This document shows, piece after piece, positions 8,379 through 34,341 of a stretch of DNA of 64,000 bases. The position numbers and the translations under genes were made by a program. Location: the NCBI RefSeq assembly GCF_900114605.1, contig NZ_FOTP01000009.1:62001-126000 (forward strand), in the 5' to 3' direction. Under the pieces are notes generated by a model. It worked only from the letters and a program-made list of their open reading frames with translations, made no database searches and was not told where the DNA came from. Source of the stretch: Bradyrhizobium sp. NFR13. Lineage in GTDB: Bacteria; Pseudomonadota; Alphaproteobacteria; Rhizobiales; Xanthobacteraceae. How positions within the stretch are numbered: the first letter of the stretch is position 1; each line of letters starts with the position of its first letter.

Positions 8379-8392
8379 TTTGAAGCTTAAAG
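8379..8392 (-). promoter_or_regulatory. Shared 14-bp operator, copy 1 (upstream of the ABC importer)
   Basis: Reads CTTTAAGCTTCAAA on the minus strand, matching YTTTARGTTTAAAA at 11 of 14 positions. It lies 96 bases before the chosen start of the ABC ATPase. One of eight similar sites in the window. Confidence 0.5.
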
Positions 8393-8488
8393 TAATTGCA
8401 GTTTCCGGCTACGCTGCGTCCGTCAGCATGATGGACACAGTCGGGCCGTCGTGATTGCAATGCGTGCATGGCAAATGAAGGACCGGGA

Positions 8489-9331
8489 ATGCAGGTGGTG
8501 TCGCTACGTTCGGACGCTCACGCCGAGTCGGAACCTTTATCCGGCCGCAAACCCGCTTCAGCGATGATCGAGATTGATCACGTCTCGCAGCGCTTCCAGA
8601 CTTCCGGCAAGCAAAGCCATCTGGCGCTGTCGGATATCAACCTCACCATCGAAGACGGCGCCTTCGTATCGATCCTCGGACCCTCGGGCTGCGGCAAGTC
8701 GACCTTGCTCTATATCGTCGGTGGCTTCGTGCAACCGACCGATGGCGTTGCCAAGGTGAAGGGCAAAGCGATCACGGGACCGGGTCCGGACCGCGGTCCG
8801 GTGTTTCAGGAATTCGCGCTGTTCCCGTGGAAGAACGTGCTCGGCAATGTCATGTATGGCATGCGCCAGCAGGGCATGAAGAAGTCCGAGGCAGACGCGC
8901 GCGGCCGCAAGCTGCTCGAAATGGTCGGCCTCAAGGGCTACGAGAATTTCTATCCGAAAGAACTCTCGGGCGGCATGAAGCAGCGCGTCGCGATCGCGCG
9001 CACGCTGGCCTACGATCCCGCCGTGCTGCTGATGGACGAGCCGTTCGGCGCGCTCGATGCGCATACCCGCACGCGGCTGCAGAACGACCTGCTCGACATC
9101 TGGGATACGCAGCGCAAGACGGTGTTGTTCGTCACCCATTCGGTCGAGGAAGCCGTCTATCTCTCCGACAAGGTGATCGTGATGTCGCGCTCGCCGGGCA
9201 GCATCAAGGAAATCGTCGATATCGATCTGCCGCGGCCGCGCAAGCGCGCCGATCTGCTGCTCGACGCACGTTTCCAGAAATACATCGTCGATATCGAGAA
9301 GATGATCGACGACGGCAAGGACCATCTGTGA
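8489..9331 (+). CDS. ABC transporter ATPase, nitrate/sulfonate/taurine importer type
   Basis: A 280-residue ATPase with Walker A GPSGCGKST, Q-loop FQEFALFPW, signature LSGGMKQR, Walker B VLLMDEPFGALD and H-loop VTHS. It powers a NrtD/SsuB/TauB-type importer. I chose ATG 8489 because AAGGA sits six bases upstream, while the ATG at 8468 has no ribosome site. The next permease gene starts on its stop codon (TGATG). No substrate-binding protein gene is next to it. A shared operator lies upstream, which ties this transporter to the aromatic acid island. Confidence 0.9.
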   Translation: MQVVSLRSDAHAESEPLSGRKPASAMIEIDHVSQRFQTSGKQSHLALSDINLTIEDGAFVSILGPSGCGKSTLLYIVGGFVQPTDGVAKVKGKAITGPGPDRGPVFQEFALFPWKNVLGNVMYGMRQQGMKKSEADARGRKLLEMVGLKGYENFYPKELSGGMKQRVAIARTLAYDPAVLLMDEPFGALDAHTRTRLQNDLLDIWDTQRKTVLFVTHSVEEAVYLSDKVIVMSRSPGSIKEIVDIDLPRPRKRADLLLDARFQKYIVDIEKMIDDGKDHL

Positions 9332-10113
9332 TGACCGTGCGCGGGGTGCTCAAGACACTTTCGCCATTGTTCGCCTGTATCGGGTTGCTGTGTGTCTGGC
9401 AGATCGCCTCGCTGCGGCTGGATACCGAGAGCTTTCCGACGGCACTGGAGTCGATCAAGGCGATTCCGTCGATCCTCGGGGACAAGGGATCGCTGCTGAA
9501 CATTCTCGATTCCATCCGCCGGATGACCATCGGGCTCGTGCTCGCGGTGATGTTTGCGATCCCGCTCGGTTTGCTGATGGGGCGCATCAAGGCTGTCGCG
9601 GCCTTCTTCAATCCGCTGATGATGATCATCTATCCCGTGCCAAAAGCAGCGCTGATGCCCATCATCATGCTGTGGATGGGCGTTGGCGACGTCTCCAAGA
9701 TTCTTGTCATCTTCCTCGGCGTCAGCCTGCCGATCATCTATCACGCCTTCCAGGGCTCCAAAGCCGTCGAAGAAAAGATGCTGTGGTCCGGTGCGGCGAT
9801 GGGCATGTCCGCGCCGATGCGCATGCTCCGCATCGTGTTGCCCGCAGCGCTGCCTGAAATTCTCACGGGCTGCCGCACCGGTCTCGTGCTGGCGCTGATC
9901 ACCATGATCACCTCCGAGATGATCGCGCGCCAGTCCGGCGCGGGCAACATCCTGTTCAATTCGCTCGACATGGCGCAATACGACACGGTGTTCGCGATGA
10001 TCCTGATCATCGGCGCCATGGGCATCATCTTCGATGCGGCCTTCGAGAAGCTTCGGCTGTCGCTGGTGCGCTGGTCGCAGCCGCGCGACGACATGCCTCT
10101 CAGCTTTACGTGA
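9331..10113 (+). CDS. ABC transporter permease 1, nitrate/sulfonate type
   Basis: A 260-residue protein with about six membrane helices and the EAA loop that contacts the ATPase (EKMLWSGAAMGMSAPMRM ... LPAALPEILTG). The ATG at 9331 overlaps the ATPase stop codon. It is paralogous in layout to the next permease, so the transporter probably uses a heterodimeric channel. Confidence 0.88.
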   Translation: MTVRGVLKTLSPLFACIGLLCVWQIASLRLDTESFPTALESIKAIPSILGDKGSLLNILDSIRRMTIGLVLAVMFAIPLGLLMGRIKAVAAFFNPLMMIIYPVPKAALMPIIMLWMGVGDVSKILVIFLGVSLPIIYHAFQGSKAVEEKMLWSGAAMGMSAPMRMLRIVLPAALPEILTGCRTGLVLALITMITSEMIARQSGAGNILFNSLDMAQYDTVFAMILIIGAMGIIFDAAFEKLRLSLVRWSQPRDDMPLSFT

Positions 10114-10120
10114 GCGCAAC

Positions 10121-11048: not shown

Positions 11049-12032
11049 TCAAAGCACCGGCGGCTTCTGCAACTGGAAATGCTTCAGCAAATCCACGAAC
11101 GCCGACAACCGTCCCTCGCGATAGGCATCGACATCGAGACCTTCGTAGTTGAGAAAGCCTTCGCCTGTCCGCAACCCGATCTTTCCTTCAGCCATGTTAC
11201 GGCCGATGATCTCGGGAGCCGCGTAACGGTCGTTGTTCAGCGCGCCGGTAAGATATTTGCTGGCGTAATGGAGAATATCGCCGCCGCCCCAGTCGATGAA
11301 TTCGAGCAGGCCCAACACTGCGAAGCGGAAACCGAAACCATATTTGATAGCCTTGTCGAGATCTTCCGGCGAGGCGACGCCTTCCTCGACCATCCGCGCG
11401 GCTTCGTTCATCGCCAGCGCCTGGATGCGCGGCACGATATAGCCGGGCGAGGCCGAGCACACGACAGGCACCTTGCCGATTCCTTCGAGCAGCTCCTTCA
11501 CACGCGCGGTGATCGCTGGATCTGTCTTGGCGCCGGGCGAGACTTCGACCAGCGGCACGAGATAGGCGGGGTTCAGCCAGTGCGCATTGAGAAAGCGCTC
11601 GGGATGCTCGACCGCGCTTGAAATATCATCGACGAGAATGGTGGACGTCGTCGATGCGATGATCGGCGTGGGGCCCGCGAGCTGCGAAGCGCGCGCCAGC
11701 GCCTCGCGCTTCTGCTCAAGCACCTCCGGCACGCCTTCGAAGATGATCGCCGAGCTGCTCAGCGCGGCGCCGGCACCTGATTCCCGCACAACACTGACGC
11801 GTGAGACCAGCGTCTCGATATCGGTCTCTTTCAAAAGGTCGAACCGCGCCATGCTGGCAAAAGTCTTGCGGATCTCGCCGAGCGCCTCAAGCTCCAGTGC
11901 CTTGAACTTGTCCGCGTCGCGCGCCTTGAAGTCGACAATCGCGACATTGTGGCCGGCATACGCAAAGGCGACAGCGATGCCGCGGCCCATGCGGCCTGCG
12001 CCGAGACACGCGATGGCAGGACGGGCGCTCAT
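11049..12032 (-). CDS. 3-hydroxyacyl-CoA dehydrogenase
   Basis: A 327-residue NAD-dependent dehydrogenase. The N-terminal Rossmann motif is CLGAGRMGRGIA. The catalytic His is in LNAHWLNPAYLVPLVEV and the catalytic Glu downstream of ASTTST. The C-terminal dimerisation domain contains SPGYIVPRIQA and the GEGF region. It would oxidise a 3-hydroxyacyl-CoA in a beta-oxidation-like route. Its ATG overlaps the stop of the octopine-dehydrogenase-like gene (ATGA). It is the last gene of a five-gene operon transcribed from 16768. Confidence 0.92.
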   Translation of the reverse strand: MSARPAIACLGAGRMGRGIAVAFAYAGHNVAIVDFKARDADKFKALELEALGEIRKTFASMARFDLLKETDIETLVSRVSVVRESGAGAALSSSAIIFEGVPEVLEQKREALARASQLAGPTPIIASTTSTILVDDISSAVEHPERFLNAHWLNPAYLVPLVEVSPGAKTDPAITARVKELLEGIGKVPVVCSASPGYIVPRIQALAMNEAARMVEEGVASPEDLDKAIKYGFGFRFAVLGLLEFIDWGGGDILHYASKYLTGALNNDRYAAPEIIGRNMAEGKIGLRTGEGFLNYEGLDVDAYREGRLSAFVDLLKHFQLQKPPVL

Positions 12033-13123
12033 GCGGCAAAGCCTTCGCGCAGCAACTTCTGCAGCCCGGCCTGATTGAGGTCGCCGAAGCCGAGGCTTGC
12101 GAGCGTACGGCCGCCCTGCAGAAAATTCTCGCCGCAGATCGCGCCGCCGATGGCGAGGAACGCCTTGACCAGCGGAGTCTCGACACCGGCGAGCCTTGCG
12201 CAGGACAGGAAGAACGACAGGCCGGTCCGCAGGTCTTCGCGCATGTAGCGATGCTCGGTGAGCACGATATGTTCGCGCCAGTCGCCGCTATCGGTCAGGC
12301 GATCATGTGAACCACGGCCATACATCCACTCCTCGCCTTCCTTGGCGTAGTGCTGCACCAGCGGAAAATGCGATGGGCCATAGCCGAAGGCCTCGCGGAT
12401 CGCGATGCGTTCGGCATCGAGCTGGTCGGTGACGCGGCGGATCGACACCTGCGTGCCTTCCTTGTGGATGTCCCAGGTCGGGAAGTGCTCAAGAGGTCCG
12501 GCATTCATCACGATCAGCGGCGGATGGATGATCGGCCCGGCATTCATCAGCGCACCGGACAGCGCATCACCGCAGGGTTCGATCACACCGGGGAAGGCCT
12601 TGTCGATCACCTTGCAGGCGTAGTCGGACATCGACAGCGGGAATACGCCAGTCGGCAGACGTTTGGCGCGGATGGTGATGGCGACCTCGAACGGACCGTG
12701 CTTGCGCGCAAGCCAGGGCAGCGTGCCGGTCTCAGCGAAAGCAACCTTGGCCTTGTTGCCGGCATCATGCGCAGCCTTGGCGAAGATCATCGAGCCGAAG
12801 GTCGCAGGTGGCAGATAGACCACCTGGCCATCCTTGAGCTGCGGCGCGATTCGTTTGGCGATATCAGGCTGGGCAAAGGCAGGCGCCGGGCATAGGATCA
12901 GTTCGACGTCCTTGATGGCTTCGGCGATATCGGTCGTGACCAGTGTCAGCTGCGTGTCGTGCGTGCCCTGCGCATTCTTGACCTTGATGCGCGAGCCGGC
13001 CTTCTTGTGTTCGGCCATAGCTTCGGCATCGCGGCGCCACAGGCGGACGTCATGGCCCTGCAGTGCGAAATCACCGGCGGCTGCGAACGAACCGTTGCCG
13101 CCACCCAATACTGCGATCTTCAA
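12029..13123 (-). CDS. NAD/NADP octopine/nopaline dehydrogenase family protein
   Basis: A 364-residue protein with an N-terminal dinucleotide fold (VLGGGNGSFAAAGDFALQGH) and an octopine-dehydrogenase C-terminal domain containing the His motif GPIIHPPLIVMNAG. Known members make or cleave opine-type N-(carboxyalkyl) amino acids or oxidise 2-hydroxy acids. The start is TTG at 13123 with GGAGAG five bases upstream, and it overlaps the stop of the ligase gene (TTGA). A much longer frame with an upstream start would overlap the ligase gene by over 200 bases and is spurious. Its position among acyl-CoA genes is unusual, and its substrate is unknown. Confidence 0.82.
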   Translation of the reverse strand: MKIAVLGGGNGSFAAAGDFALQGHDVRLWRRDAEAMAEHKKAGSRIKVKNAQGTHDTQLTLVTTDIAEAIKDVELILCPAPAFAQPDIAKRIAPQLKDGQVVYLPPATFGSMIFAKAAHDAGNKAKVAFAETGTLPWLARKHGPFEVAITIRAKRLPTGVFPLSMSDYACKVIDKAFPGVIEPCGDALSGALMNAGPIIHPPLIVMNAGPLEHFPTWDIHKEGTQVSIRRVTDQLDAERIAIREAFGYGPSHFPLVQHYAKEGEEWMYGRGSHDRLTDSGDWREHIVLTEHRYMREDLRTGLSFFLSCARLAGVETPLVKAFLAIGGAICGENFLQGGRTLASLGFGDLNQAGLQKLLREGFAA

Positions 13124-14658
13124 TTGGTCTCTCCGTCGCTCGGCGTTGCCGCCTGAACCTGCTTCAGTTTGAAATGCTGCACCTTGCCGAGCGCGGTGCG
13201 CGGCAGGTCTGTGACGAACACGATGTCGCGCGGCTGCTTGTAGCGCGCGAGCTGCGTCAGAACATGGGCCTTCAACGCCTCGGCCGTTACGCTGCAATTC
13301 GGCCGCAGCAGGACATAGGCAACCGGCACTTCCTGCCATTTAGGATCGGGCACGCCGACGACGCCGCAATCGGCGACATCGGGATGTTCGAGCAGCACGC
13401 GCTCGACTTCGGCGGGATAGACGTTCTCGCCGCCGGAAATGATCATGTTCTTCTTGCGGTCATGGACCCAGAAGTAACCGTCATCGTCGCGCGTGCCGAT
13501 ATCGCCGGTGCGATACCAGCCGTCATGCAGTGCCTCGCGCGTTGCGGCCTCGTTGCCCCAGTATTCATAGAACACGTTCGGGCCTCGCACGGCGATCTCG
13601 CCGGTCGCTTGGGCCGGCAGCTCGTTGCCGTTGTCATCGATGATCATGGCTTCGCAGCACAGGCCGGGCAAACCCGTCGATCCCGTGCGCGACAGGTCGC
13701 CGCCGAGCCGCGTATAGACCGCGATCGGGCAGGTCTCGGTCGAGCCATAGACCTGCAGCACGGGAATGCCGCGCGTCGTCAGGCGTTCGATCAGATGCGG
13801 CGGTACGATGCTGGAGCCAGTGGATACGGCTTTCAGACAGGACACGTCGGTCTCGGCCCAGCCGGGATGCTCGCTCATCGCCTGGATGAGCGCGGGCACC
13901 CAGACGGTCAGGCTCGGTCGCTCCTGCGCGATTGCAGCCAGCGTTGAGTCCGGTGTGAAACGGGCATGGATCGTCACGGTGGCGCCATGATGCAGCGCCG
14001 GCGTGGTCTGGATATTGAGGCCGCCGACATGGAAGAATGGCAGCACGGTCAGCACGTGATCGTCTGACGTGAGGCCGTGCATGTGCTGGCTCATCACGCC
14101 GTTCCACAGCAACGCTTCCTGGCGCAGCACGGCGCCTTTAGGGCGACCTGTAGTACCCGACGTGTAGACGATCAGTAGCGGGCAGGAGAGGTCGGTATGC
14201 GGATTGCGGCCGTCGCCGGACGCTCGCGTCAGCAGATCGTCGAATGTCTGGCCGGGTGAGGGTGGCGTGAAATCGAGCGCGATCACGCGCGTATCCGGCA
14301 ATTCCTTCGCAAGCGACGGCAGGATCGCTGCAAAGCCTTCCTCAAGCACCAGCACCTTTACCGAAGCATCGGACAGAATGAACAATTGCTCGGCGACCGC
14401 GAGGCGCCAGTTCAGTGGCACCAGGATCGCGCCGAGGCGGGCGCAGGCATAGAGCAGAACCAGATAATCGGGCCGGTTCATGCTCAGGATCGCGACGCGA
14501 TCACCGCGACCGACGCCGCATTCCGCCTTCAGCGCCTTCGCCGTTGCCTCGATCCGCGCGTTGAACGCGACATAGCTGAATGTCTTGCCCTCGAAATGAA
14601 TCGCGGGCTTGTCCGGTGTGAACGCGGCATTGCGTGCGATGAGGCTGGAGAGGTCCAC
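13120..14658 (-). CDS. Acyl-CoA synthetase (AMP-forming ligase)
   Basis: A 512-residue ANL-superfamily ligase. Motifs are the P-loop YTSGTTGRPKGA, the adenylate-binding YGSTETCP, GWYRTGDIG, the hinge DRKKNMIISGGENVYP and the C-terminal catalytic Lys in PRTALGKVQ. It activates a carboxylic acid to its CoA thioester. It is distinct from the benzoate-CoA-ligase-type enzyme at 34391, so the island has two acid-activating enzymes. It ends within the start of the octopine-dehydrogenase-like gene and begins two bases after the acyl-CoA dehydrogenase stop. Confidence 0.92.
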   Translation of the reverse strand: MDLSSLIARNAAFTPDKPAIHFEGKTFSYVAFNARIEATAKALKAECGVGRGDRVAILSMNRPDYLVLLYACARLGAILVPLNWRLAVAEQLFILSDASVKVLVLEEGFAAILPSLAKELPDTRVIALDFTPPSPGQTFDDLLTRASGDGRNPHTDLSCPLLIVYTSGTTGRPKGAVLRQEALLWNGVMSQHMHGLTSDDHVLTVLPFFHVGGLNIQTTPALHHGATVTIHARFTPDSTLAAIAQERPSLTVWVPALIQAMSEHPGWAETDVSCLKAVSTGSSIVPPHLIERLTTRGIPVLQVYGSTETCPIAVYTRLGGDLSRTGSTGLPGLCCEAMIIDDNGNELPAQATGEIAVRGPNVFYEYWGNEAATREALHDGWYRTGDIGTRDDDGYFWVHDRKKNMIISGGENVYPAEVERVLLEHPDVADCGVVGVPDPKWQEVPVAYVLLRPNCSVTAEALKAHVLTQLARYKQPRDIVFVTDLPRTALGKVQHFKLKQVQAATPSDGETN

Positions 14659-14660
14659 GA

Positions 14661-15944
14661 TTACTCGTCTTTCTCGCCGGCCTCGTAGAGTGCCTCGCGA
14701 CCGATACGGTCGAGGCAGAGTTCGGCGGTCCAGGGCAGCATCAGCGCGCCGCAGCGGCTGTCGCGATAGATGCGCTCCAGTGGCAGCGATTTCAACATCG
14801 ACTGGCCGCCGCAGGTGCGGATCGCCAGTGCGGCGAGTTCGTTGGCGCCTTCCATCACGGTGTATTGGGAGGCGTAGGCGCGCAGCACCTGTTCCTTGCT
14901 GGGATTGGCGCAGGCTTCAGTTACAGCCTGGAACCAGGTGTTCTTGATCTGCTCCAGCTTGACCTGCATCTGCGCTACGGCGATCTGCTTGGTCGGATAC
15001 ATGCGGCGCTTCACTGGCGGCATGCCTGGAATTTCGCCGCGGAGATACTTCACGGTGAAATCGTAGGAGGCCTGAGCCAGACCGACATAAGTTGGCGACA
15101 GCGTCATGAACATGTGCGGCCAGCGCATCGCGGCCTGGAAATAGACGCCGCGCGGCATCAGCGCTGCATCTTCCGGAACGAACACATCCTTGAAGATCAG
15201 CGTGCGCGAGACGGTGCCGCGCATGCCGAGCGGATCCCAGTCGCCGACGACCGAGACGCCTTCGGACTTGGCGGAGATGGCCAGATACAGCGTGTTGCGG
15301 CGCGAAGCCTTTTCGCCTTCGACGGTCTCGGTGCAGAGCACGCCGTAATAGTCGGCGGAGCCTGACAGCGAGGCAAAGATCTTCTTGCCGTTGACGATCC
15401 AGCCGCCTTCGACCGGCTTGGCCTCGGTGCCGAATGCGACGCCGCCAGCGGCTGCTGCGCCGCCTTCGGAGAAGGGCTGCGCATAGATCGCGCCGTCTTC
15501 GAGGATGCGCTTGTAATGCACGGCGCGGCGGCGCTCGTGATCGGCGCGCATCTGCTCATCCATGTCGAGGTCATCGGCGAGCGGGCCGGACCACAGCGTC
15601 GAGCAGACATGCATGTTCCAGGTCAGCGCGGTCGCGCCGCAATAGCGGCCGATCTCGGCTGCGGCCAGAGAGTAGGTCTGGTAGTTCGCGCCCGAACCAC
15701 CATTGGCCTTCGGGATCGAAATGCCGAGCAGGCCGGCCTTGTGCATGTCCTTGTAGTTTTCCATCGGGAAAATCGCTTCCCGATCCCACTTCGCTGCACG
15801 CGGTGCAAAATTCGCCTGCGCCAGTTCACGCGCCTTGGTGATCAGCCCGGCCTGCTCGTCATCGAGACGATAGGCCTTCGGATCGAACATCGGCTTGTCG
15901 AGGACGATACCGTCGAGATCGGCTTTACTGGCAGGCGCGTTCAT
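14661..15944 (-). CDS. Acyl-CoA dehydrogenase family flavoprotein, atypical C terminus
   Basis: A 427-residue acyl-CoA dehydrogenase-like protein with the three-domain layout: N-terminal helices to about 150, a beta domain with GGWIVNGKKIFASLSGSADY, and a C-terminal helical domain with IRTCGGQSML. At the position where short/medium-chain enzymes have IYEGT, this protein reads RIYRDSRCGALMLPWTAE, so the standard catalytic Glu is absent there. It may use a Glu elsewhere, as isovaleryl-CoA dehydrogenase does, or perform another flavin reaction. Its start overlaps the hydrolase stop. Confidence 0.85.
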   Translation of the reverse strand: MNAPASKADLDGIVLDKPMFDPKAYRLDDEQAGLITKARELAQANFAPRAAKWDREAIFPMENYKDMHKAGLLGISIPKANGGSGANYQTYSLAAAEIGRYCGATALTWNMHVCSTLWSGPLADDLDMDEQMRADHERRRAVHYKRILEDGAIYAQPFSEGGAAAAGGVAFGTEAKPVEGGWIVNGKKIFASLSGSADYYGVLCTETVEGEKASRRNTLYLAISAKSEGVSVVGDWDPLGMRGTVSRTLIFKDVFVPEDAALMPRGVYFQAAMRWPHMFMTLSPTYVGLAQASYDFTVKYLRGEIPGMPPVKRRMYPTKQIAVAQMQVKLEQIKNTWFQAVTEACANPSKEQVLRAYASQYTVMEGANELAALAIRTCGGQSMLKSLPLERIYRDSRCGALMLPWTAELCLDRIGREALYEAGEKDE

Positions 15945-16768
15945 GAGGAGGACCCCGAGAGGTTGTGGCTCGTCTTCAGAAAGTCGGCGAGCACTTCGTT
16001 GAATTCATGCGGGCGCTCGAAGCTGGCGAGATGGCCGACGCCTTCGAGTTCGACGTAAGTCGCGCCGGGCACGAGACCGGCCATCTTGGCCATTGTTTTC
16101 GCGGGCGCGTTGTTGTCTTTTGATCCAGATAGGACTAAAGTCGGTATTTTGATATTTGTGATGTTCTTGCGCAGGTCGAAGCCGATCATCGCCTTCATCG
16201 AGGCACGATAGGTGTCGGGCTTTACGGACGCCATGCAGTCCTGTGCCAGCGCAATGCCGGCAGGATCGGCATCGTCGCCGATCAGGCCTGCAACCAGTTT
16301 CGGCGCCATCGACACCATGGTCTCGCCGCGGTCGAGCGGACCGAGCCGGGCATCGATGAAATTCTTCTGCCACTCGCCATCGGAGCTGCCGAAGCCAGAG
16401 GTGGTTTGCGCCAACACCACGGCGCCGGGAAGGTGAGGGTCCGTCGTCAGCAGTTGCTGCACGATCATGCCGCCGATGGAGTGGCCGACCAGCACAGGCT
16501 TCCTGGCGCCGATCTGCCCGAGGAAATCCTTCAGGGCTTCAGCGAAGGCCGGAATGCTGGGAACCTCAAGCTGCCTTGAACCGCCATAGCCCGGCGAGTC
16601 CCAGCCAATGGCATAGTAGCGGTCGCCGAACGCCTCGAGTTGGTTACGCCAGCCGCGGCCCGCGCCGCCGATCCCGTGCAGAAACACCAGCGGTGTCGCT
16701 GTGGGGGAGCCTTTGGCTTCAAAGCCGAAGCGGCCGTCCTTCGTCGTCAGGGCTGCAGAATTTGGCAC
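15941..16768 (-). CDS. Alpha/beta hydrolase
   Basis: A 275-residue hydrolase with the oxyanion motif FLHGIGG, nucleophile elbow VGHSIGGM and C-terminal His in EGVGHLASFE, similar in form to ring-cleavage or enol-lactone hydrolases such as PcaD/MhpC. I chose GTG 16768 because AGGAGG lies seven bases upstream. An ATG at 16810 lacks such a site and adds residues not typical of the fold. It is the first gene of the five-gene operon, with a shared operator 67 bases upstream. Confidence 0.85.
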   Translation of the reverse strand: MPNSAALTTKDGRFGFEAKGSPTATPLVFLHGIGGAGRGWRNQLEAFGDRYYAIGWDSPGYGGSRQLEVPSIPAFAEALKDFLGQIGARKPVLVGHSIGGMIVQQLLTTDPHLPGAVVLAQTTSGFGSSDGEWQKNFIDARLGPLDRGETMVSMAPKLVAGLIGDDADPAGIALAQDCMASVKPDTYRASMKAMIGFDLRKNITNIKIPTLVLSGSKDNNAPAKTMAKMAGLVPGATYVELEGVGHLASFERPHEFNEVLADFLKTSHNLSGSSS

Positions 16769-16835
16769 GCATAGGCCTCCTGTGCTGTCGGACAAGGGTG
16801 ATCCTAGCATGTCCGAGATATATGAAAAGCGATAG

Positions 16836-16849
16836 TTTTAGACTTAAAG
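16836..16849 (-). promoter_or_regulatory. Shared 14-bp operator, copy 2 (hydrolase operon)
   Basis: CTTTAAGTCTAAAA on the minus strand, 67 bases before GTG 16768. It differs from copy 8 only in the first base. Confidence 0.65.
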
Positions 16850-16971: not shown

Positions 16972-16985
16972 CTTTAGGTTTAAAA
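16972..16985 (+). promoter_or_regulatory. Shared 14-bp operator, copy 3, over the -10 of the 17021 gene
   Basis: CTTTAGGTTTAAAA. A promoter TTGTCC (16959-16964), 16 bases, TAAAAC (16981-16986) can be read, with the operator covering the -10 box. A GGAGG ribosome site and ATG 17021 follow. Copies 6 and 8 share this geometry. Confidence 0.7.
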
Positions 16986-20536: not shown

Positions 20537-20550
20537 GTCTAGGTTTCAAA
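20537..20550 (+). promoter_or_regulatory. Shared 14-bp operator, copy 4 (degenerate), before the AraC gene
   Basis: GTCTAGGTTTCAAA, 19 bases before ATG 20570. It matches the consensus less well than the others. It lies in the divergent gap between the cupin gene and the AraC gene and could serve either. Confidence 0.4.
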
Positions 20551-21598: not shown

Positions 21599-21627
21599 CG
21601 GCATGGTCTGCCTGTTTCTTGCAAAAG

Positions 21628-21641
21628 CTTGAAGTATAAAA
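21628..21641 (+). promoter_or_regulatory. Shared 14-bp operator, copy 5 (SDR/hydratase unit)
   Basis: CTTGAAGTATAAAA followed by TAATAT, 43 bases before ATG 21685. A TAAAAT box overlaps its right half, as in copies 6 and 8, but the -35 is poor. Confidence 0.55.
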
Positions 21642-23559: not shown

Positions 23560-23573
23560 TTTTAGGTTTAAAA
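23560..23573 (+). promoter_or_regulatory. Shared 14-bp operator, copy 6, over the -10 of the 23607 gene
   Basis: TTTTAGGTTTAAAA. Promoter TTGCCA (23547-23552), 16 bases, TAAAAT (23569-23574) with the operator covering spacer and -10. This also argues that translation starts at 23607 and not at 23511. Confidence 0.75.
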
Positions 23574-27380: not shown

Positions 27381-27405
27381 GTCGACTGTCATAAGTGTTC
27401 GAGCC

Positions 27406-27861: not shown

Positions 27862-27922
27862 TGGGTTGTCCTTCCTTGGGTCACGCATTACGACGCGTCG
27901 GGTGGTACTTGAAAACAGTTGA

Positions 27923-28621
27923 TCAAACGTGGAGGAAACGGTCCTTCACGGTGGAGTCGCTCTTCAGTTGCTCGGATGTACCCGTCCACACGACGCGGCC
28001 TTTCTCGATCACCACATGGCGATCGGCGAAGCCTGCCAGCGCATCGACATTCTTGTCGATGACCAGAATGGACTGATGCTCGGCCTTGAGTTTCTTCAGG
28101 CAGTTCCAGATTTCGAGACGGATGAGCGGTGCGAGGCCTTCGGTGGCTTCATCGAGAATGAGCAGCTTAGGATTGGTCATCAGCGCGCGGCCAACGGCCA
28201 GCATCTGCTGCTCGCCGCCGGACAACTGTGTGCCGAGATTGCTGCGGCGTTCCTTGAGACGCGGAAACAGCTCGTAGATCTTGTCCAGCGTCCAGCGCGC
28301 CGGCGGATGGCGCACGGCGGCGGTGGCAACCAGGTTTTCTTCCACCGTCAGCGTGGGGAAGATCTGGCGGCCTTCGGGCACCAGACCGATGCCTGCCTGG
28401 GCGATGCGGTAGGACGGCAGCCCGGCCATAGGTTTGTCGTCGAATGTGACGGTGCCGCCGGTTGGATGGATCAGGCCCATGATGGCGTTGATGGTCGTCG
28501 TCTTGCCCATGCCGTTACGGCCGAGCAGGGTCACGACTTCACCGGCATTGATGGTCAGAGAGATGTCGAACAGTACTTTCGCCGCACCATAGGCGGCTTG
28601 CAGGTTGGATACGGCGAGCAT
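27923..28621 (-). CDS. Branched-chain-amino-acid-type ABC transporter ATPase (LivF-like)
   Basis: A 232-residue ATPase with Walker A LLGRNGMGKTTT, signature LSGGEQQ, Walker B LLILDEATEGLAP and switch His replaced by VIDKN (Asn), common in LivF proteins. It overlaps the stop of the LivG-like gene by one base. It belongs to a five-gene Liv operon whose binding protein gene is at 32565. In aromatic degraders such transporters import benzoate- or aminobenzoate-like acids, but the substrate here is not proven. Confidence 0.92.
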   Translation of the reverse strand: MLAVSNLQAAYGAAKVLFDISLTINAGEVVTLLGRNGMGKTTTINAIMGLIHPTGGTVTFDDKPMAGLPSYRIAQAGIGLVPEGRQIFPTLTVEENLVATAAVRHPPARWTLDKIYELFPRLKERRSNLGTQLSGGEQQMLAVGRALMTNPKLLILDEATEGLAPLIRLEIWNCLKKLKAEHQSILVIDKNVDALAGFADRHVVIEKGRVVWTGTSEQLKSDSTVKDRFLHV

Positions 28622-29373
28622 CAGGCAGCCTCCTCGCCGAGATAGGCGGCGCGCACTTCCGCATTGTCACGAATGTTCTGCGGCGATCCGCAGGCGATGA
28701 TGCGGCCATAGACCAGCACCGACACGCGATCGGCCAGCGCGAACACAGCATCCATATCGTGTTCGATCAGGATGATCGGCAATTCCTTGCGCAGCTCCTG
28801 CAGGATGTTGATCAACCGCTGCGATTCATCGCGACTGGTGCCGGCGAGCGGTTCGTCGAGCAGCAGGAGCTTGGGTTTCGCGGCGAGCGCAATGGCGATT
28901 TCGAGCTGGCGCTTCTCGCCATGCGACATCTGCCCGGCCGGAATATGAGCGCGAGCGCCCAGCCCGAAGCGCGTCAGAAGGCCCATGGCGATGTCGTTGA
29001 GCTCGGGCTCCTCGGCGGCATTGCCAAGGAAGCGGAAGCTCGATCCGGCACGGGCCTGTGCCGCAAGCGCGACGTTCTCCAGTGCCGAGAAACGCGGCAG
29101 GATCGAGGTGATCTGGAACGACCGCACGAGGCCGCGCTGCGCGCGGGCGGCCATCGACAAGTCGGTGATGTCGTGGTCGTCGAACAGGATCTGTCCGCTG
29201 TCGGGTCGAGCGTGGCCCGAGATCTGGTGGATCAGCGTCGTCTTGCCGGCGCCGTTCGGGCCAATGATGGCGTGCAACTCGCCGGGCTCGACCGTGAATG
29301 ATACGTCGTCGGTGACGCGCAGCGCACCGTAGTTTTTGGTGAGGTTCTGCAGCTGCAAGAGGGCGGTGCTCAT
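28621..29373 (-). CDS. Branched-chain-amino-acid-type ABC transporter ATPase (LivG-like)
   Basis: A 250-residue ATPase with Walker A IIGPNGAGKTTL, signature MSHGEKRQLE, Walker B LLLLDEPLAGTS and H-loop LIEHDMDAVF. It overlaps the permease stop on one side and the LivF-like start on the other, so all are translationally coupled. Confidence 0.93.
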   Translation of the reverse strand: MSTALLQLQNLTKNYGALRVTDDVSFTVEPGELHAIIGPNGAGKTTLIHQISGHARPDSGQILFDDHDITDLSMAARAQRGLVRSFQITSILPRFSALENVALAAQARAGSSFRFLGNAAEEPELNDIAMGLLTRFGLGARAHIPAGQMSHGEKRQLEIAIALAAKPKLLLLDEPLAGTSRDESQRLINILQELRKELPIILIEHDMDAVFALADRVSVLVYGRIIACGSPQNIRDNAEVRAAYLGEEAA

Positions 29374-30353
29374 GGCTTGCCTCCGAACAGGCCGTTGATG
29401 CCGCCGCGAACGAACAGCACGACGAGGATCAGGATCGGGCCGAAGATCATCGCCCAGTTCTCGGTGTAGTGCGACAGGATATCAGCGAGCAGCGTAAACG
29501 CCGCCGCGCCGAGGATCGCGCCATGCAGCGAGCCAAGGCCGCCGAGCACCAGCACAAAGATCAGTTCGCCAGAGCGCTGCCACGCAGTATAGGCCGGGCT
29601 GACGAATTCGGTCTGGTTAGCGAGCAGAAAGCCCGACCCGCCTGCGATCAGGCCGGCGATGACATAGGCGGTGAGTTGGTAGCGATACGGCGCAAAGCCG
29701 ATCGCCTCCATGCGCACCGGGTTCTCGCGGATGCCACGCAGCACGCGGCCGAAGCGCGAGGCGACGATGGCGCGCAGCAGCAGATAAGCGCCGAGCAGCG
29801 TGCCGAAGGTGACGTAATACATCGCGAGATCGTTCTTCATGAACTTCAGGCTGAAGAACGTGCTGCGCGCGGCAAGCGTCAATCCGTCGTCGCCGCCATA
29901 GGCGGCGAGCGAGGTGGTCAGGAAGAACAGCATCTGGCCGAAGGCCAGCGTGATCATGATGAAGTAAACGCCTTTGGTGCGCAGCGAGATCGCGCCGGTA
30001 AAAAGCGCAAATATCAGCGACGTCGCCAGCGCAACGGCGAGCTGGACAAAGCCATCGGTAATGCCGTGGCTCGCCAGAATGGCGACGCTATAGGCACCGA
30101 GACCGACGAATGCGGCGTGGCCGAACGAGATCATCGCGCCATAGCCGATCAGGAGATCAAGTGACATGGCGCCGAGCGCCAGGATCATGATGCGGGTCAC
30201 GACCGCAAGGACATAGCTCTGCGGTCCGAGCAGAAGGGCCAACGGCACCAGCGCGAAAGCTGCAAAGATGATCACCGGCAGGATCCGCGTGCGCCTGGCT
30301 CTGGTTGGCGTCGCGAGGGCCGGGGCGGCGTCGAGATCGACAAGATTGTTCAT
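29370..30353 (-). CDS. Branched-chain-amino-acid-type ABC permease (LivM-like)
   Basis: A 327-residue membrane protein with about eight to ten helices and the LivM signature GYGAMISFGHAAFVGLGAYS. The conserved loop VSPAYTAWQRSGELIF and LGGLGSLHGAILGA follow. It forms the channel with the LivH-like protein encoded 12 bases upstream on the same strand. Confidence 0.93.
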   Translation of the reverse strand: MNNLVDLDAAPALATPTRARRTRILPVIIFAAFALVPLALLLGPQSYVLAVVTRIMILALGAMSLDLLIGYGAMISFGHAAFVGLGAYSVAILASHGITDGFVQLAVALATSLIFALFTGAISLRTKGVYFIMITLAFGQMLFFLTTSLAAYGGDDGLTLAARSTFFSLKFMKNDLAMYYVTFGTLLGAYLLLRAIVASRFGRVLRGIRENPVRMEAIGFAPYRYQLTAYVIAGLIAGGSGFLLANQTEFVSPAYTAWQRSGELIFVLVLGGLGSLHGAILGAAAFTLLADILSHYTENWAMIFGPILILVVLFVRGGINGLFGGKP

Positions 30354-30365
30354 GCTGCGCTCCCG

Positions 30366-31286
30366 TTACTTCTTGGCCGGGAACAGGCCGGACGGCCGGA
30401 AGAACAGCACGGCAGCCATCAGGATGTAGATCAGCATCGGCGCGATGGCTCGGCCGGTCTGGCTGGCCGCGGAAGGGTCGAGCAACGCGCGCAGCAAGGT
30501 CGGTGCAAAGAAGCGGCCGAGCGTATCCACGAGGCCGATCAGGAGCGCCGCGATGAAGGCGCCGCGGATCGAGCCGATGCCGCCGATCACAATGACCACG
30601 AAAGCGAGGATCAGCACATTGTCGCCCATGCCGGGTTCGACCGAGAGGATCGGTGCAATCATGGCGCCGGCGAAGCCGGCCAGCATCGCGCCGACGCCGA
30701 ACACGATAGTGAACAGCAGGCGGATATTGACGCCGAGCGCGGAGACTATCGGCGCATTGCTGGCGCCGGCACGGACCAGCATGCCGAGCTTGGTCTTGTT
30801 AACGACGAGATAGAGCGCGAGGCCGACAAGGAGACCCACGGCAATGATGATGAGACGCCAGACCGGATAGAGCAGGCCGTCGGTGATTTCGATTGCGCCC
30901 GACAGCGCATCCGGAATCGGCACGTTCAGCGGCGCCGCGCCCCAGACGAATTTGACGGCCTGATTGAGGAAGATGATGACGCCGAAGGTCGCCAGCACCT
31001 GATCGAGATGGTCACGATCGTAGAGATGCCGGAAGATCAGCAGCTCGAGCAGCAATCCGAATATCAGTGCAGCAGGCAGCGCGAGCGCTAGTCCGGTGAA
31101 AAAGCCCCCGGTCATGGCGGTGAAGGCGGCGACGAAATAGGCGCCGACCATATACTGCACGCCATGTGCAAGATTGATGAAGTCCATGACGCCGAACACC
31201 AGCGTCAGGCCGGCGGCGATCAGGAACAGGATCAATCCGAACTGCAGGCCGTTCAGGATCTGGACGAGGGCAAGCGTGAGGGTCAT
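30366..31286 (-). CDS. Branched-chain-amino-acid-type ABC permease (LivH-like)
   Basis: A 306-residue integral membrane protein starting MTLTLALVQILNGLQFGLIL with the LivH signature GVMDFINLAHGVQYMVGAY and VIVIGGIGSIRGAFIAALL. It is separated from the binding protein gene by about 100 bases containing a strong hairpin, which would lower permease expression relative to the binding protein. Confidence 0.93.
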   Translation of the reverse strand: MTLTLALVQILNGLQFGLILFLIAAGLTLVFGVMDFINLAHGVQYMVGAYFVAAFTAMTGGFFTGLALALPAALIFGLLLELLIFRHLYDRDHLDQVLATFGVIIFLNQAVKFVWGAAPLNVPIPDALSGAIEITDGLLYPVWRLIIIAVGLLVGLALYLVVNKTKLGMLVRAGASNAPIVSALGVNIRLLFTIVFGVGAMLAGFAGAMIAPILSVEPGMGDNVLILAFVVIVIGGIGSIRGAFIAALLIGLVDTLGRFFAPTLLRALLDPSAASQTGRAIAPMLIYILMAAVLFFRPSGLFPAKK

Positions 31287-31333
31287 CAGATAACTTGGTT
31301 TCTATACTGAGATAAAGCACGGGCAGATAAGAC

Positions 31334-31368
31334 ACCGGGCCGTCCCGCCTTCGCGGCGACGGCCCGGT
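31334..31368 (-). terminator. Intra-operon hairpin between binding protein and permease genes
   Basis: ACCGGGCCGTC (31334-31344) pairs perfectly with GACGGCCCGGT (31358-31368), and an inner CCGC/GCGG adds to the stem around a CTTC loop. There is no T run, so it fits an mRNA-stabilising or partly terminating hairpin that gives more binding protein than permease. Confidence 0.7.
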
Positions 31369-31389
31369 AATGAGTGATCGACTGCGAAA

Positions 31390-32565
31390 TTACTGCGCAG
31401 CGCAGTCCTTGGCGTAACGATCGGCGTAGTTGCTGAAAACCTTCTCGACGATCTCGGTCTGGAACTTGCCGTCGGCCCGCTTGGCGACCTTGGTCAAGTA
31501 GAAGTCCTGCACCGGATAGCCGTTGTTGCTGAGCTTGAAGCTGCCGCGGATCGATGGGAAGTCGGCTTTCTTCAGCGCCGCGATCACCTTCGTCTTGTCG
31601 GACATGTCGCCCTTCACGGCCGTGACGGCACTGTTGATCAGCAGAGCGGCGTCATAGGCCTGGAAAGCATAGGTCGCGGGCACGCTGTTATAGGCCTTCT
31701 CGTATTCCGCGACGAACTTCTTGTTTGCGGCATTGTCGAGATTCGGTGCCCAGTTGGAGCCACCGAACATGCCGATCGCCGCATCCTGCTGAGCCGGCAG
31801 CGTCGATTCATCGACGGTGAAGGTCGACAGGAACGGAATGCGGTCGAGCAGGCCGGCTTGCTTGTACTGCTTGACGAGGTTCACACCCATGCCGCCCGGC
31901 ATGAAGGTGAGCACGGCATCAGGCTTCATCGATGCAATCTTCGAGAGTTCGGCCTGGAAATCGAGTGTGCCGAGCGGGATGAAGGATTCTTCGACGATCT
32001 CGCCCTTGAAGTCCATCTTCACGCCGGCGACGAAGTCCTTGCCGGCCTGATAGTTCGGGGTCATCAGATAGATCTTCTTGTAGCCGCGCTTCTGGGCAAC
32101 GTTACCGAGGATCTGGTGGATCTGGTCGTTCTGATACGACGTCACATAGAAGTACGGATTGCACTCCTTGCCCGCGTAGCTCGACGGGCCGGCATTCGGC
32201 GAGATCAGGAAGGTCTTGTTCTCGGTCACCGGCTTATGGATCGCGCCCAGGATGTTGGAGAAGATCGGGCCGACTACGAAGTCGACTTTGTCGCGCTCCA
32301 GCAGACCCTTGACCTTGGTGACGGCGACGTCCGGCTTGAGTTCGTCATCGACGACGATGACTTCGACGTCCTTGCCGCCCATCTTGCCGCCGAGATCCTT
32401 GACGGCGAGGTTGAAGCCGTCGCGGGCCTGCTGTCCGAGCACGGCACCGGCGCCCGACAGCGACACGATCACGCCAACCTTGATCTTTTCCTGAGCCATG
32501 GCCGGGATGGCCGAAACGCTCATCATCAGGGTGGCCAGACCGGCCAATTTGAGAGACTGCTTCAT
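31390..32565 (-). CDS. Liv-type ABC transporter substrate-binding protein
   Basis: A 391-residue periplasmic protein with signal peptide MKQSLKLAGLATLMMSVSAI PAMA (about 24 residues) and the type I periplasmic-binding fold (KIKVGVIVSLSGAGAVLGQQ, then VDFVVGPIFSN). Family relatives bind aromatic acids or amino acids. The ATG at 32565 follows GGAGGAG. It is the first gene of the liv operon, with a shared operator 168 bases upstream. Confidence 0.93.
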   Translation of the reverse strand: MKQSLKLAGLATLMMSVSAIPAMAQEKIKVGVIVSLSGAGAVLGQQARDGFNLAVKDLGGKMGGKDVEVIVVDDELKPDVAVTKVKGLLERDKVDFVVGPIFSNILGAIHKPVTENKTFLISPNAGPSSYAGKECNPYFYVTSYQNDQIHQILGNVAQKRGYKKIYLMTPNYQAGKDFVAGVKMDFKGEIVEESFIPLGTLDFQAELSKIASMKPDAVLTFMPGGMGVNLVKQYKQAGLLDRIPFLSTFTVDESTLPAQQDAAIGMFGGSNWAPNLDNAANKKFVAEYEKAYNSVPATYAFQAYDAALLINSAVTAVKGDMSDKTKVIAALKKADFPSIRGSFKLSNNGYPVQDFYLTKVAKRADGKFQTEIVEKVFSNYADRYAKDCAAQ

Positions 32566-32904
32566 TAACTTCTCCTCCACTCGGCTGCGACAGGCAGCCG
32601 AAAAACGTGCCAACCCAGAATTCTGTTCTTTTGCCTAGATTATGCTCACCATGGGCGCAGCCGCAAGCAATGTAAGTGACTTCCAGGCGTCAGAAATCAG
32701 TCGAATGCGCTATGCAAACCGCAGGCCAATTTATTTGAACCTTAAAGAAATATTCAAAATCGTCGGCGGTCAAGGCTGCGGCGTTTTGGCTTGCGGTCGG
32801 ACGGAAATTCCTTGAAGGTCAAAGGATCGGTATGGGGCGGTACGAGATTGTGGATTGCCGGTCTCGCGGCCGCCGCGGGAGCTCCAAGCAGGTAAGATTG
32901 CATT
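32566..32904. other. Divergent control region of liv operon and marR
   Basis: 339 bases without a gene between the binding protein (-) and MarR (+) genes. It holds operator copy 7 at 32734-32747 in an AT-rich patch (about 32725-32765), a reasonable site for two divergent promoters. I see nothing coding. Confidence 0.6.
32734..32747 (-). promoter_or_regulatory. Shared 14-bp operator, copy 7 (liv operon / marR)
   Basis: CTTTAAGGTTCAAA on the minus strand, between the divergent liv and marR genes, 168 bases from the binding protein start and 157 from the MarR start. It allows joint repression of uptake and autoregulation of MarR. Confidence 0.6.
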
Positions 32905-33411
32905 ATGATTCTCGATTCCGAGACCAAGGCCGTCGAACTTCCCGATGATCACGGCGATGAGCTGCGCCTGTGGCTCCGGCTCCTGACCTGTACGACATTG
33001 ATTGAGGGTGAAGTCCGCAGCCGCTTGCGCGAGCGCTTTGATGTGACGCTCCCTCGTTTCGACCTGATGGCCCAGCTCGACAAGGTACCCGACGGTATGA
33101 CCCTGTCGGATGTCTCGAAGCGCATGATGGTCTCGAATGGCAACGTGACCGGCCTGGTCGAACGCCTCGTGGAATCCGGCCATGTTGATCGCCGCACCTC
33201 CGACACCGATCGCCGGGTGCAGGTGATACGGCTTACCAAACTGGGCCGCGCGGAGTTCCGCAAGATGGCCGAAGAACACGAGACATGGATCGCCGAAATC
33301 TTCACGGATCTGGCGCCGAAGGATGTTCGCGAATTAATGCGACTGCTCGCCAAGACCAAGGCTTCTGCGCAGAAGGCGGCGCAAAGGGTAGCAAACGGCA
33401 AAGCGCCGTAA
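32905..33411 (+). CDS. MarR-family transcriptional regulator
   Basis: A 168-residue winged-helix regulator. The DNA-binding part is TLSDVSKRMMVSNGNVTGLVERLV followed by the wing DTDRRVQVIRLT. MarR proteins bind palindromic AT-rich operators as dimers and are released by aromatic acids or their CoA esters (as known for BadR and CouR in Rhodopseudomonas palustris). Eight matching operators surround it, one of them in its own promoter region. It is cotranscribed with the hydrolase at 33422. It is the best candidate for master repressor of the island. Confidence 0.92.
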   Translation: MILDSETKAVELPDDHGDELRLWLRLLTCTTLIEGEVRSRLRERFDVTLPRFDLMAQLDKVPDGMTLSDVSKRMMVSNGNVTGLVERLVESGHVDRRTSDTDRRVQVIRLTKLGRAEFRKMAEEHETWIAEIFTDLAPKDVRELMRLLAKTKASAQKAAQRVANGKAP

Positions 33412-33421
33412 ACGCGACGCG

Positions 33422-34240
33422 GTGAGTGCAGTGATCGACCTCGAAGCCGAGTACAACAATCGCGCAAAGGTTCCGGAAAGCGCTGCGCTGATTGCCGGCT
33501 GGGCACAGGATGCCAAGGCCTATCGCGAGATTGTCCAAGGCAAGCGTGTCATTCGCTATGATGAAGGTGCACGCCACAGCATCGATTACTTTCCGGCCAG
33601 GGATGAAGGGCCGATCGTCGCCTTCATTCATGGTGGTTACTGGCAGGTGCTGGACAGCTCCTTCTTCAGCCATCTGGCGCGCGGGCTGAATAGCCATGGC
33701 ATCAGCGTGGCGATCCCCAGCTATGATTTGTGCCCGAACGTCTCGGTCGGTGATATCATTGTGCAGATGCGTGCGGCGACCCGCGAACTGGCGAAGCTCG
33801 GCCGGCCGCTCATTGTGTCGGGCCATTCGGCCGGCGGTCATCTCGCCGCCTGCATGCTGGCGACAGATTGGCGTGCGCTCGATCCCGCGCTGCCGCAGGA
33901 CCTGATTGTCGGCGCTTATGCGATCTCCGGCCTGTTCGATCTGCGGCCGCTGGTACCGACGTCCATCAACAATGCATTGCATTTGAACGATGCCGGCGCC
34001 CGTGAAGTCAGCCCGTTGTTCTGGCCAGCGCCTTCGTGCGGGTCTCTCGACGCGGTGGTTGGTGGTGATGAGGGGGTCGAATATTTGCGGCAGAGCCAAA
34101 GCATCGTCGACGCCTGGAGTGCCCATATTCCCACGCGCTTCGAGGCGCTTCCTGGCGCCAATCATTTTACCGCTGTCGCACCGCTAGCGGATCCGCAGTC
34201 CGCCATGGTGCTGCGGCTGAAGGCTCTGGCCACGCTTTAG
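33422..34240 (+). CDS. Alpha/beta hydrolase resembling arylformamidase (kynurenine formamidase)
   Basis: A 272-residue hydrolase with the HGG oxyanion motif AFIHGGYWQ, nucleophile elbow VSGHSAGGHLAA and C-terminal His in PGANHFTA. The HGGYWQ form is typical of arylformamidases that turn N-formylkynurenine into kynurenine, though many esterases of the family look alike. The start is GTG, 10 bases after the marR stop. Its position between the regulator and a 2-aminobenzoate-CoA-ligase-like gene fits removal of an N-formyl or ester group from an aromatic amine. Confidence 0.78.
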   Translation: MSAVIDLEAEYNNRAKVPESAALIAGWAQDAKAYREIVQGKRVIRYDEGARHSIDYFPARDEGPIVAFIHGGYWQVLDSSFFSHLARGLNSHGISVAIPSYDLCPNVSVGDIIVQMRAATRELAKLGRPLIVSGHSAGGHLAACMLATDWRALDPALPQDLIVGAYAISGLFDLRPLVPTSINNALHLNDAGAREVSPLFWPAPSCGSLDAVVGGDEGVEYLRQSQSIVDAWSAHIPTRFEALPGANHFTAVAPLADPQSAMVLRLKALATL

Positions 34241-34327
34241 GCTGACTTGCCTAAACAATCTGCGCAAATCGACGTCCGTCGCCGAAAATTTCGGCGTGCC
34301 GCAAGACTCCGCAGTTGCGGAAAACTG

Positions 34328-34341
34328 TTTTAAGTCTAAAA
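34328..34341 (+). promoter_or_regulatory. Shared 14-bp operator, copy 8, over the -10 of the CoA ligase
   Basis: TTTTAAGTCTAAAA, 49 bases before ATG 34391. Promoter TTGCGG (34315-34320), 16 bases, TAAAAT (34337-34342), with the operator over the -10 box exactly as in copy 6. Confidence 0.75.

Follow-up and report, generated by a model that had tools for sequence, protein, structure and literature searches.

A conserved near-palindromic operator marks a probable MarR regulon for CoA-dependent anthranilate degradation in Tardiphaga and its relatives

Anthranilate is a product of tryptophan and auxin breakdown. A 2001 study of the abm cluster of Azoarcus/Aromatoleum evansii reportedly described a 2-aminobenzoate-CoA (coenzyme A) ligase, a fused monooxygenase/reductase and beta-oxidation enzymes, and the same cluster is said to encode an ABC substrate-binding protein, a RidA-like "translation inhibitor" and a MarR-like regulator. 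In the literature, abm is the gene name for the 2-aminobenzoyl-CoA pathway (PMC8879955), and CouR and BadR, which belong to the MarR family, regulate aromatic pathways and respond to CoA thioesters (PMC4737184; PMC10458429). The Rhodococcus CouR box is cATTGA-N5-TCAATg, lying over the -35 box (PMC4737184), and IadR/IacR of Variovorax, Bradyrhizobium and Pseudomonas are MarR repressors of auxin catabolism whose ligand is free indole-3-acetic acid (PMC9613470; PMC11630574); the iad pathway ends in anthranilate (PMC9613470). Here we analyze a 64,000-nucleotide stretch of a Tardiphaga genome (genome G000, C9:62001-126000; hereafter the window) that carries an island of genes for aromatic acid degradation. 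A sequence-only reading of the window had proposed that a 14-bp operator recurs in front of eight transcription units of this island and defines a MarR regulon. A genome scan, conservation before operon leaders and the company that the operator keeps with MarR support that proposal, and the MarR-family protein encoded at 32905-33411 is probably the operator-binding repressor of an aerobic, CoA-dependent anthranilate pathway.

The eight quoted 14-bp strings were checked against the letters of the window, and all eight were found at the positions and on the strands given for them. A matrix built from these eight returned the same sites as its top 8 matches in the 64 kb, followed by their own reverse strands; the first match elsewhere scored 10.8, and the lowest score among the eight was 18.8. 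With leave-one-out scoring, each held-out site ranked 2 to 11 over both strands, the one at 20537 being the weakest. The pattern YTTTARGTYTAAAA, allowing up to 2 mismatches, had 9 matches at 7 places in the window compared with 0.20 expected, and none of 100 shuffles reached 9. The further proposal that the sites point toward their genes proved uninformative, since the 14-mer is near-palindromic and its orientation toward a gene therefore carries no information.

The quoted 14-mers are the core of a near-palindrome of about 24-26 bp, AAtTA-YTTTARG-CYTAAAR-TAaTT, with conserved AT flanks. This consensus, with YTTTARGCYTAAAR as its core, was drawn from the 273 sites that 83 related islands contain, 262 of them distinct when flanks are counted. 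The 26-bp matrix behind the scores in Table 1 was built from 179 sites, with six loci recognised as Tardiphaga left out. Judged by these scores, seven operators of the window are firm and two, at 32811 and 20537, weak. The best 26-bp score in each of 200 first-order shuffles had a median of -3.3, a 95th percentile of 6.4 and a maximum of 12.2, a control that used one 20-kb stretch, whereas the 20 distant loci described below vary in G+C (0.44-0.71). Over the related islands, 385 column-permuted matrices gave a median of 1 match and a 90th percentile of 7, against 273 for the real matrix. The median and 90th percentile are quoted because this control is partly unsuitable: some permutations merely swap near-equal columns and still match (up to 236 versus 273).

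Conservation was assessed in 120 loci of at least 5000 bases (L046-L165) chosen by MarR match, and the figures quoted refer to the 83 that have the fused monooxygenase/reductase (ACMR) at >60% identity. MarR matches at E<=1e-20 occur in 102 of 198 genomes of the family; one list of relatives covered the best 80 of 589. With window-trained scoring, every one of the 83 islands had at least one operator, and none of the 273 sites fell inside a tblastn-matched coding sequence. Among the other 37 loci, 34 had at least one site at T>=16. A site stood within 350 bp upstream of ACMR in 74/83 islands, of the short-chain dehydrogenase gene (SDR) in 58/69, of the substrate-binding protein gene (SBP) of the liv-type transporter in 51/57 and of the alpha/beta hydrolase gene abh1 in 21/22, and also of CoA ligase 2 in 49/77 and of marR in 44/83. 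By the same measure there was none before the internal genes for enoyl-CoA hydratase (ECH, 0/72), RidA (0/73), FADmo (0/45), livF and livG (0/25) or livM and livH (0/24), and none before the FMO gene (0/8 relatives). Operators are thus kept ahead of orthologous operon leaders, whereas internal genes are without them, and the conservation test that the sequence-only reading had proposed came out in its favor. The lower shares for marR, CoA ligase 2 and the acyl-CoA dehydrogenase gene ACD1 arise because in many relatives these genes are placed within the SDR operon. Individual sites of the window persist as well: the 8379 operator is kept in 12/12 fetched Tardiphaga loci (L252-L263, own genome included), and the one at 16972 is also present in the relative L047.

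Carriers of at least one site include Tardiphaga, Bradyrhizobium, Microvirga, Caulobacter, Ensifer, Mesorhizobium, Aminobacter and Shinella. ACMR itself was detected at E<=1e-150 in 71 of 398 genomes of the phylum Pseudomonadota. Twenty of these 71 were fetched as a distant set, and an operator lay no more than 400 bp ahead of ACMR or SDR in 17/20 at a score of >=16 and in 18/20 at >=10. Thirteen pairs of sites are spaced 15 bp apart, mainly in loci with a MarR at 60-70% identity, suggesting two dimers side by side. Such pairs occur near the SDR/ACMR promoters of L057, L062, L066, L068 and L075.

The whole genome (6.22 Mb, 17 contigs) was then considered. The palindromic core TTTARRYYTAAA occurs exactly at 7 genome places, 4 of them in the island, and with at most 1 mismatch at 20 places, 5 in the island, giving binomial P values of 1.1e-8 and 1.9e-8, respectively, for a 26-kb interval chosen post hoc. 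The pattern read backwards, as a control, had 79 places genome-wide; the motif is therefore concentrated in the island, without genome-wide enrichment. A model trained on sequence alone, from 41 of 104 listed sites plus reverse complements and none from recognised Tardiphaga loci, was applied to 150 of 194 first-look candidates in the own genome. At E<=5 it returned six places, namely, 8379, 23560, 16972, 32734, 34328 and one before a thiamine diphosphate (ThDP) enzyme gene on contig C8. The sites at 21628 and 16836 fell below this cut; scored in the window, they reached 10.9 and 10.3 bits. Across five further Tardiphaga genomes the model returned 34 places at E<=2, of which 28 lay no more than 40 kb from marR, 3 lay at the ThDP gene and 3 elsewhere, and two genomes without a MarR match at E<=1e-20 (G001, G022) had zero places at E<=2. 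This is the concentration in the island that the sequence-only reading had anticipated for a genome-wide scan. Operator-like places outside islands and the ThDP gene were seen at G140:C1:4661746 and 5751936, G155:C1:2504180 and G504:C26:186680.

Two off-island matches of the own genome were rejected as regulon members. One, an exact match before an HlyD-type efflux gene (L002), was found in 12/12 fetched loci (L228-L239; 11 genomes, own included); its nearly fixed flanks differ from those of the operator (GATAmGCTTTAAGCCTAAAGCGyAt) and its 26-bp scores are low (12.5-17.9). This palindrome is probably the site of another regulator. The other, L001, beside ACR_tran and SBD_N genes, is patchy among relatives.

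The lone ThDP-enzyme gene elsewhere in the genome would be an additional target in trans. Its operator is present in 12/12 fetched Tardiphaga loci (own included), where the letters vary and the palindrome is kept. Three genomes from a different genus of the family (L294-L296) have a ThDP homologue (51-52%) that is divergent from ACMR, with operators between the two genes. These three loci also have an ABC ATPase gene, 42-46% identical to the window gene at 8468, close to the ThDP/ACMR pair, which echoes the first ABC operon of the island.

The regulator has the winged-helix domain of the MarR family, above the curated cut-off. Its AlphaFold2 model has a mean pLDDT of 86.3, and the best Foldseek matches are the MarR-DNA complexes 8ylg and 6jbx. 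A palindromic operator is characteristic of the family; the conserved candidate sites are near-palindromes, to which the window MarR is predicted to bind. On balance, the operator appears to track this MarR type more than any single enzyme gene. Three loci (L079, L084 and L063) have the MarR type and operators and no ACMR gene, the site of L063 appearing with the 26-bp model. In the L079 and L084 clusters the MarR is 54-61% identical to the window protein, and the two share a gene set that resembles iad auxin-degradation loci and that in L084 includes a ring-hydroxylating dioxygenase, a cyclase, an SDR, a thiolase-like protein and a TPP/DUF6537 pair. In G504 and G446, marR is on a different contig and the operator is still at ACMR. 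G485, the sole genome among the 20 in which no such MarR was found (E<=1e-15), scores 0.3 before ACMR.

The sequence-only reading had placed a site in the promoter region of marR itself. The site it had quoted, 32734, sits beside the divergent transporter promoter, whereas a weaker site at 32811, absent from its list, lies nearer marR and is probably the autoregulation site. It is kept in L046, L047 and L049 and is better in L055. This conservation near marR supports 32811; the weak site at 20537 is without such support.

Promoter boxes other than the sigma-54-like element were read by eye, with no control. Five of the seven firm sites have the operator in the -35/-10 spacer, and four of those overlap the -10 box. 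The promoters of ACMR, CoA ligase 2, ACD1 and the first ABC operon share the pattern TTGNNN-N16-TAAArY, in which the operator takes up the spacer and extends into the -10 box; at SDR it lies within the spacer, and at 16836 no such promoter could be assigned. This geometry points to exclusion of polymerase, that is, steric repression. The transporter promoter has a further element, TGGC-N7-TTGC, found in 54 of 75 distinct SBP upstream regions (repeated regions left out) and in all 54 at a 4-5 bp offset from the operator core. Upstream of other genes its counts were ACMR 2/78, SDR 1/75, CoA ligase 2 0/79, marR 0/112 and abh1 0/29, and the background is 0.0136 per 300 bp. The SBP promoter sequence has the features of a sigma-54 promoter: GG-N10-GC, TGGC/TTGC boxes and a conserved place. 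No sigma-54 activator domain was present among the island proteins scanned with Pfam. With a sigma-54-like element at a fixed distance from a MarR operator, it may be a two-key promoter for uptake. Elsewhere in the window, TGGC-N7-TTGC elements lie at 41455-41470 (+) and 41413-41428 (minus), with a GST-like gene (41567, +) on one side and a PHB depolymerase gene (minus, upstream end at 41386) on the other.

Table 1. Operators, promoter elements and genes of the island and of its candidate target in trans (window positions unless a contig is given; operator scores are from the 26-bp matrix)
Feature	Position	Strand	Remarks
Operator core	8379..8392		Score 37.5, highest in window; before ABC operon 8468-10885
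Operator core	16836..16849		Score 21.0; before operon abh1-ACD2-CoA ligase 1-OctDH-HCDH (minus)
Operator core	16972..16985		Score 33.1; before ACD1
Weak, doubtful operator	20537..20550		Score 10.9; between AraC-family gene (+) and cupin/FMO genes (minus)
Operator core	21628..21641		Score 28.4; before SDR-ECH
Operator core	23560..23573		Score 35.6; before ACMR operon
Operator core	32734..32747		Score 30.3; divergent SBP/marR region, adjoins sigma-54-like element
Second, weaker operator	32811..32824		Score 11.2; nearer marR
Operator core	34328..34341		Score 30.2; before CoA ligase 2-RidA
Operator before ThDP gene	G000:C8:608634-608657		L264 about 9640
Promoter, first ABC operon	TTGCCC (8366-8371)-N16-TAAAGT		By eye
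Promoter, ACD1	TTGTCC (16959-16964)-N16-TAAAAC		By eye
Promoter, SDR-ECH	TTGCAA (21619-21624)-N17-TAATAT		By eye
Promoter, ACMR	TTGCCA (23547-23552)-N16-TAAAAT		By eye
Promoter, CoA ligase 2-RidA	TTGCGG (34315-34320)-N16-TAAAAT		By eye
Sigma-54 -24/-12-like element TGGC-N7-TTGC	32713..32728	minus	Transporter promoter, 5 bp from operator core
ABC transporter, nitrate/taurine/sulfonate type	ATPase 8468-9331; permeases 9331-10113, 10121-10885	+	Pfam; best NCBIfam matches, none at cut-off
3-Hydroxyacyl-CoA dehydrogenase (HCDH)	11049-12032	minus	Pfam; abh1 operon
Octopine-dehydrogenase-like (OctDH)	12029-13339 as open reading frame	minus	Pfam; abh1 operon
Acyl-CoA ligase 1	13120-14658	minus	Pfam; abh1 operon
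Acyl-CoA dehydrogenase ACD2	14661-15944	minus	Pfam; abh1 operon
Alpha/beta hydrolase abh1	15941-16810	minus	Pfam; leads operon 11049..16810
Acyl-CoA dehydrogenase ACD1	17021-18193	+	
FMO gene	18231-19784	minus	
Cupin gene	19850-20386	minus	
AraC-family gene	20570-21598	+	
Short-chain dehydrogenase SDR	21685-22446	+	Pfam
Enoyl-CoA hydratase ECH	Open reading frame 22377-23342	+	Pfam
Fused FAD monooxygenase + old-yellow-enzyme reductase (ACMR)	23607..25958	+	Pfam PF01494 (FAD_binding_3) + PF00724 (Oxidored_FMN)
Second FAD monooxygenase	26017-27267	+	
Small protein	27355-27912	+	Without Pfam match
liv-type (branched-chain/aromatic-acid) ABC transporter	SBP 31390-32613; livH 30366-31286; livM 29370-30353	minus	Pfam
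liv-type transporter, rest	livG 28621-29373; livF 27923-28621	minus	Pfam; unit 27923..32613
MarR-family regulator, 168 aa (P0001)	32905..33411	+	PF12802, 48.6 bits, cut-off 27
Alpha/beta hydrolase downstream of marR	33422..34240	+	
CoA ligase 2, benzoate-CoA ligase family	34391-36052	+	Unit 34391..36543
RidA-type protein	36085-36543	+	Behind CoA ligase 2
ThDP enzyme, acetolactate-synthase-like	G000:C8:606888-608618	minus	Far below every curated cut-off

The genes under these operators indicate what the pathway degrades. ACMR is a fused FAD monooxygenase-old yellow enzyme of the kind expected for the 2-aminobenzoyl-CoA (abm) pathway. For CoA ligase 2, the curated cut-off was reached for the TIGR02262 benzoate-CoA ligase family only, among the best 25 of 97 matches, and the nearest solved structure is the anthranilate-CoA ligase 4wv3 (E 3.4e-99, compared with 1.3e-78 for the next). 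RidA proteins deaminate enamines and imines. Because of the likeness to 4wv3, the fusion enzyme and the RidA gene behind the ligase, the substrate of the island is most likely anthranilate, degraded via the aerobic 2-aminobenzoyl-CoA pathway. The operators precede a CoA ligase and genes for CoA intermediates, as in CoA-thioester-responsive MarR regulators.

From the operator, its positions, its conservation and its MarR company, all of them computed, we infer binding, the sign of regulation, the inducer, the substrate and the use of sigma-54 as follows. Without substrate, a MarR dimer would sit on the ~24-26-bp pseudo-palindrome and block RNA polymerase. 2-Aminobenzoyl-CoA, or a subsequent CoA intermediate, would cause the dimer to leave the DNA, switching on the CoA ligase-RidA unit, the monooxygenase/reductase, SDR-ECH, the acyl-CoA dehydrogenases with the beta-oxidation operon and the two ABC importers, and marR itself would be regulated via the weaker site. 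To be fully expressed, the liv-type importer would need a sigma-54 activator as well as departure of the repressor, a coupling that plausibly makes the import of a nitrogen-containing aromatic depend on nitrogen status. A wider version of this proposal is tentative and somewhat doubtful: that one MarR governs a Pseudomonadota-wide anthraniloyl-CoA regulon, that the regulon reaches in trans to the ThDP enzyme, which may carry out an unassigned step of the pathway (ring opening, or isatinate into anthranilate), and that the importer is gated jointly by aromatic and nitrogen status through sigma-54.

Besides the single stretch used for the shuffle control, several observations weigh against a MarR regulon of this extent. 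Two genomes with ACMR (G437, G511) had zero places at E<=2, G485 had one weak place at that level, and the sole place in G516 was away from ACMR. In L197 (G279) ACMR is without an operator, and a good one stands next to the MarR of this genome, which is encoded at another place. L203, with a MarR at 42%, shows nothing >13 with the 14-bp matrix and 21.8 with the 26-bp matrix only, and three loci with a MarR match (L063, L080 and L153) had no site at T>=16 with the 14-bp matrix. G131 has ACMR and a ThDP gene with operators between them (18.9, 15.0) and no MarR found at E<=1e-15, in a genome that is 85% complete. ThDP homologues in G005 and G042 are without the operator, and a site stands directly before ACD1 in only 4/35 relatives. 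The sigma-54 element was lacking in 21/75 SBP regions, and a sigma-70-like element, read by eye, is conserved nearer the SBP start and outside the blocking reach of the operator, so basal uptake may escape the repressor. Finally, 20537 scores 10.9 with the model trained outside Tardiphaga, compared with 21.0-37.5 for the other seven. The closest relative, L046, retains it at 14.2, and in none of the 8 relatives that have this AraC gene did the 350 bp ahead of it contain a site at T>=16. With this weak score and poor conservation, the site at the AraC gene was rejected as a firm member of the regulon.

The G131 operators would fit a different regulator, either the AraC-family protein encoded at 20570 in the island or one encoded elsewhere, binding the operator while MarR, whose binding is a prediction, merely co-travels with the cluster. 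We consider this quite improbable: the AraC gene was matched near its own start in just 8/83 islands, some stretches ending short of the place where it would be, whereas the operator was in 83/83; the operator is a symmetric palindrome, as used by MarR dimers; and it accompanies the MarR type where ACMR is absent and is missing before ACMR in G485. Even more remote is the idea that the sites are AT-rich promoter sequence (extended -10) alike by chance or through a common promoter constraint. Although they sit in promoters and several overlap -10, the top genome-wide matches are the island sites, both palindrome arms and the flanks are conserved, and the internal genes are without the motif.

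Two other alternatives leave the regulon in place. That its substrate is salicylate or another 2-substituted benzoate draws on NCBIfam NF006101, bifunctional salicylyl-CoA 5-hydroxylase/oxidoreductase, which ACMR matches at 1121.1 against a cut-off of 1078, a point to be added to those above; the closeness of CoA ligase 2 to an anthranilate-CoA ligase structure, a RidA gene behind the ligase and the MarR type shared by iad-like loci, whose pathway ends in anthranilate (PMC9613470), make this an unlikely choice. Equally, it is not probable, though worth weighing, that MarR acts as an activator or dual regulator at some sites, foremost at the sigma-54-like transporter promoter, where in 54/75 regions 4-5 bp separate the end of the operator core from the -24 element downstream of it; BadR is tabulated as repressor/activator in PMC10458429. 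Yet the operator occupies the repression position on spacer and -10 at ACMR, CoA ligase 2, ACD1 and the first ABC operon, and an operator this close to a -24 box would be expected to exclude sigma-54 polymerase too. Repression by MarR of an anthranilate pathway thus continues to be the reading that we prefer.

That reading assigns an operator and a regulon to a widespread anthranilate pathway, together with an inducer that can be tested. It also supplies candidates for the steps after the monooxygenase/reductase, namely, RidA, SDR, the hydratase, the two acyl-CoA dehydrogenases, the 3-hydroxyacyl-CoA dehydrogenase, the octopine-dehydrogenase-like protein and the ThDP enzyme. With a single operator model, loci of this sort can be located in many Alphaproteobacteria and, with less certainty, among further Pseudomonadota, and operator-promoter pairs could be parts for an anthraniloyl-CoA biosensor.

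The type of regulator is already known; in the passages of the literature searched we found neither the operator nor its reach, its pairing with sigma-54 or the ThDP target. No operator or regulon for the abm (2-aminobenzoyl-CoA) pathway turned up in that search, and the passages of two comparative regulon studies contained no such regulon. Compared by description, CouR (Rhodococcus jostii, Rhodopseudomonas palustris) and BadR (R. palustris) are of the same kind, MarR proteins with aromatic pathways, and the pathways differ. Identity with the CouR box was rejected, the island consensus with its AT-rich flanks differing from the box cited above. Close kinship with IadR/IacR was likewise rejected, the structures 7kua, 7kfo and 7kym matching at 5.7e-7, 1.1e-5 and 8.4e-4 versus 2.3e-22 for 3boq. 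The latter, a MarR protein of Silicibacter pomeroyi, is the nearest solved relative (E 2.3e-22 by sequence, 1.7e-32 by profile). The abm cluster of Azoarcus/Aromatoleum evansii reportedly has counterparts of the putative anthranilate-CoA ligase, the fusion enzyme, the beta-oxidation enzymes, the ABC substrate-binding protein, the RidA-type protein and the MarR regulator of the island; the Tardiphaga island is larger and also has AraC genes, a second ABC importer and, at the transporter, a sigma-54-like promoter.

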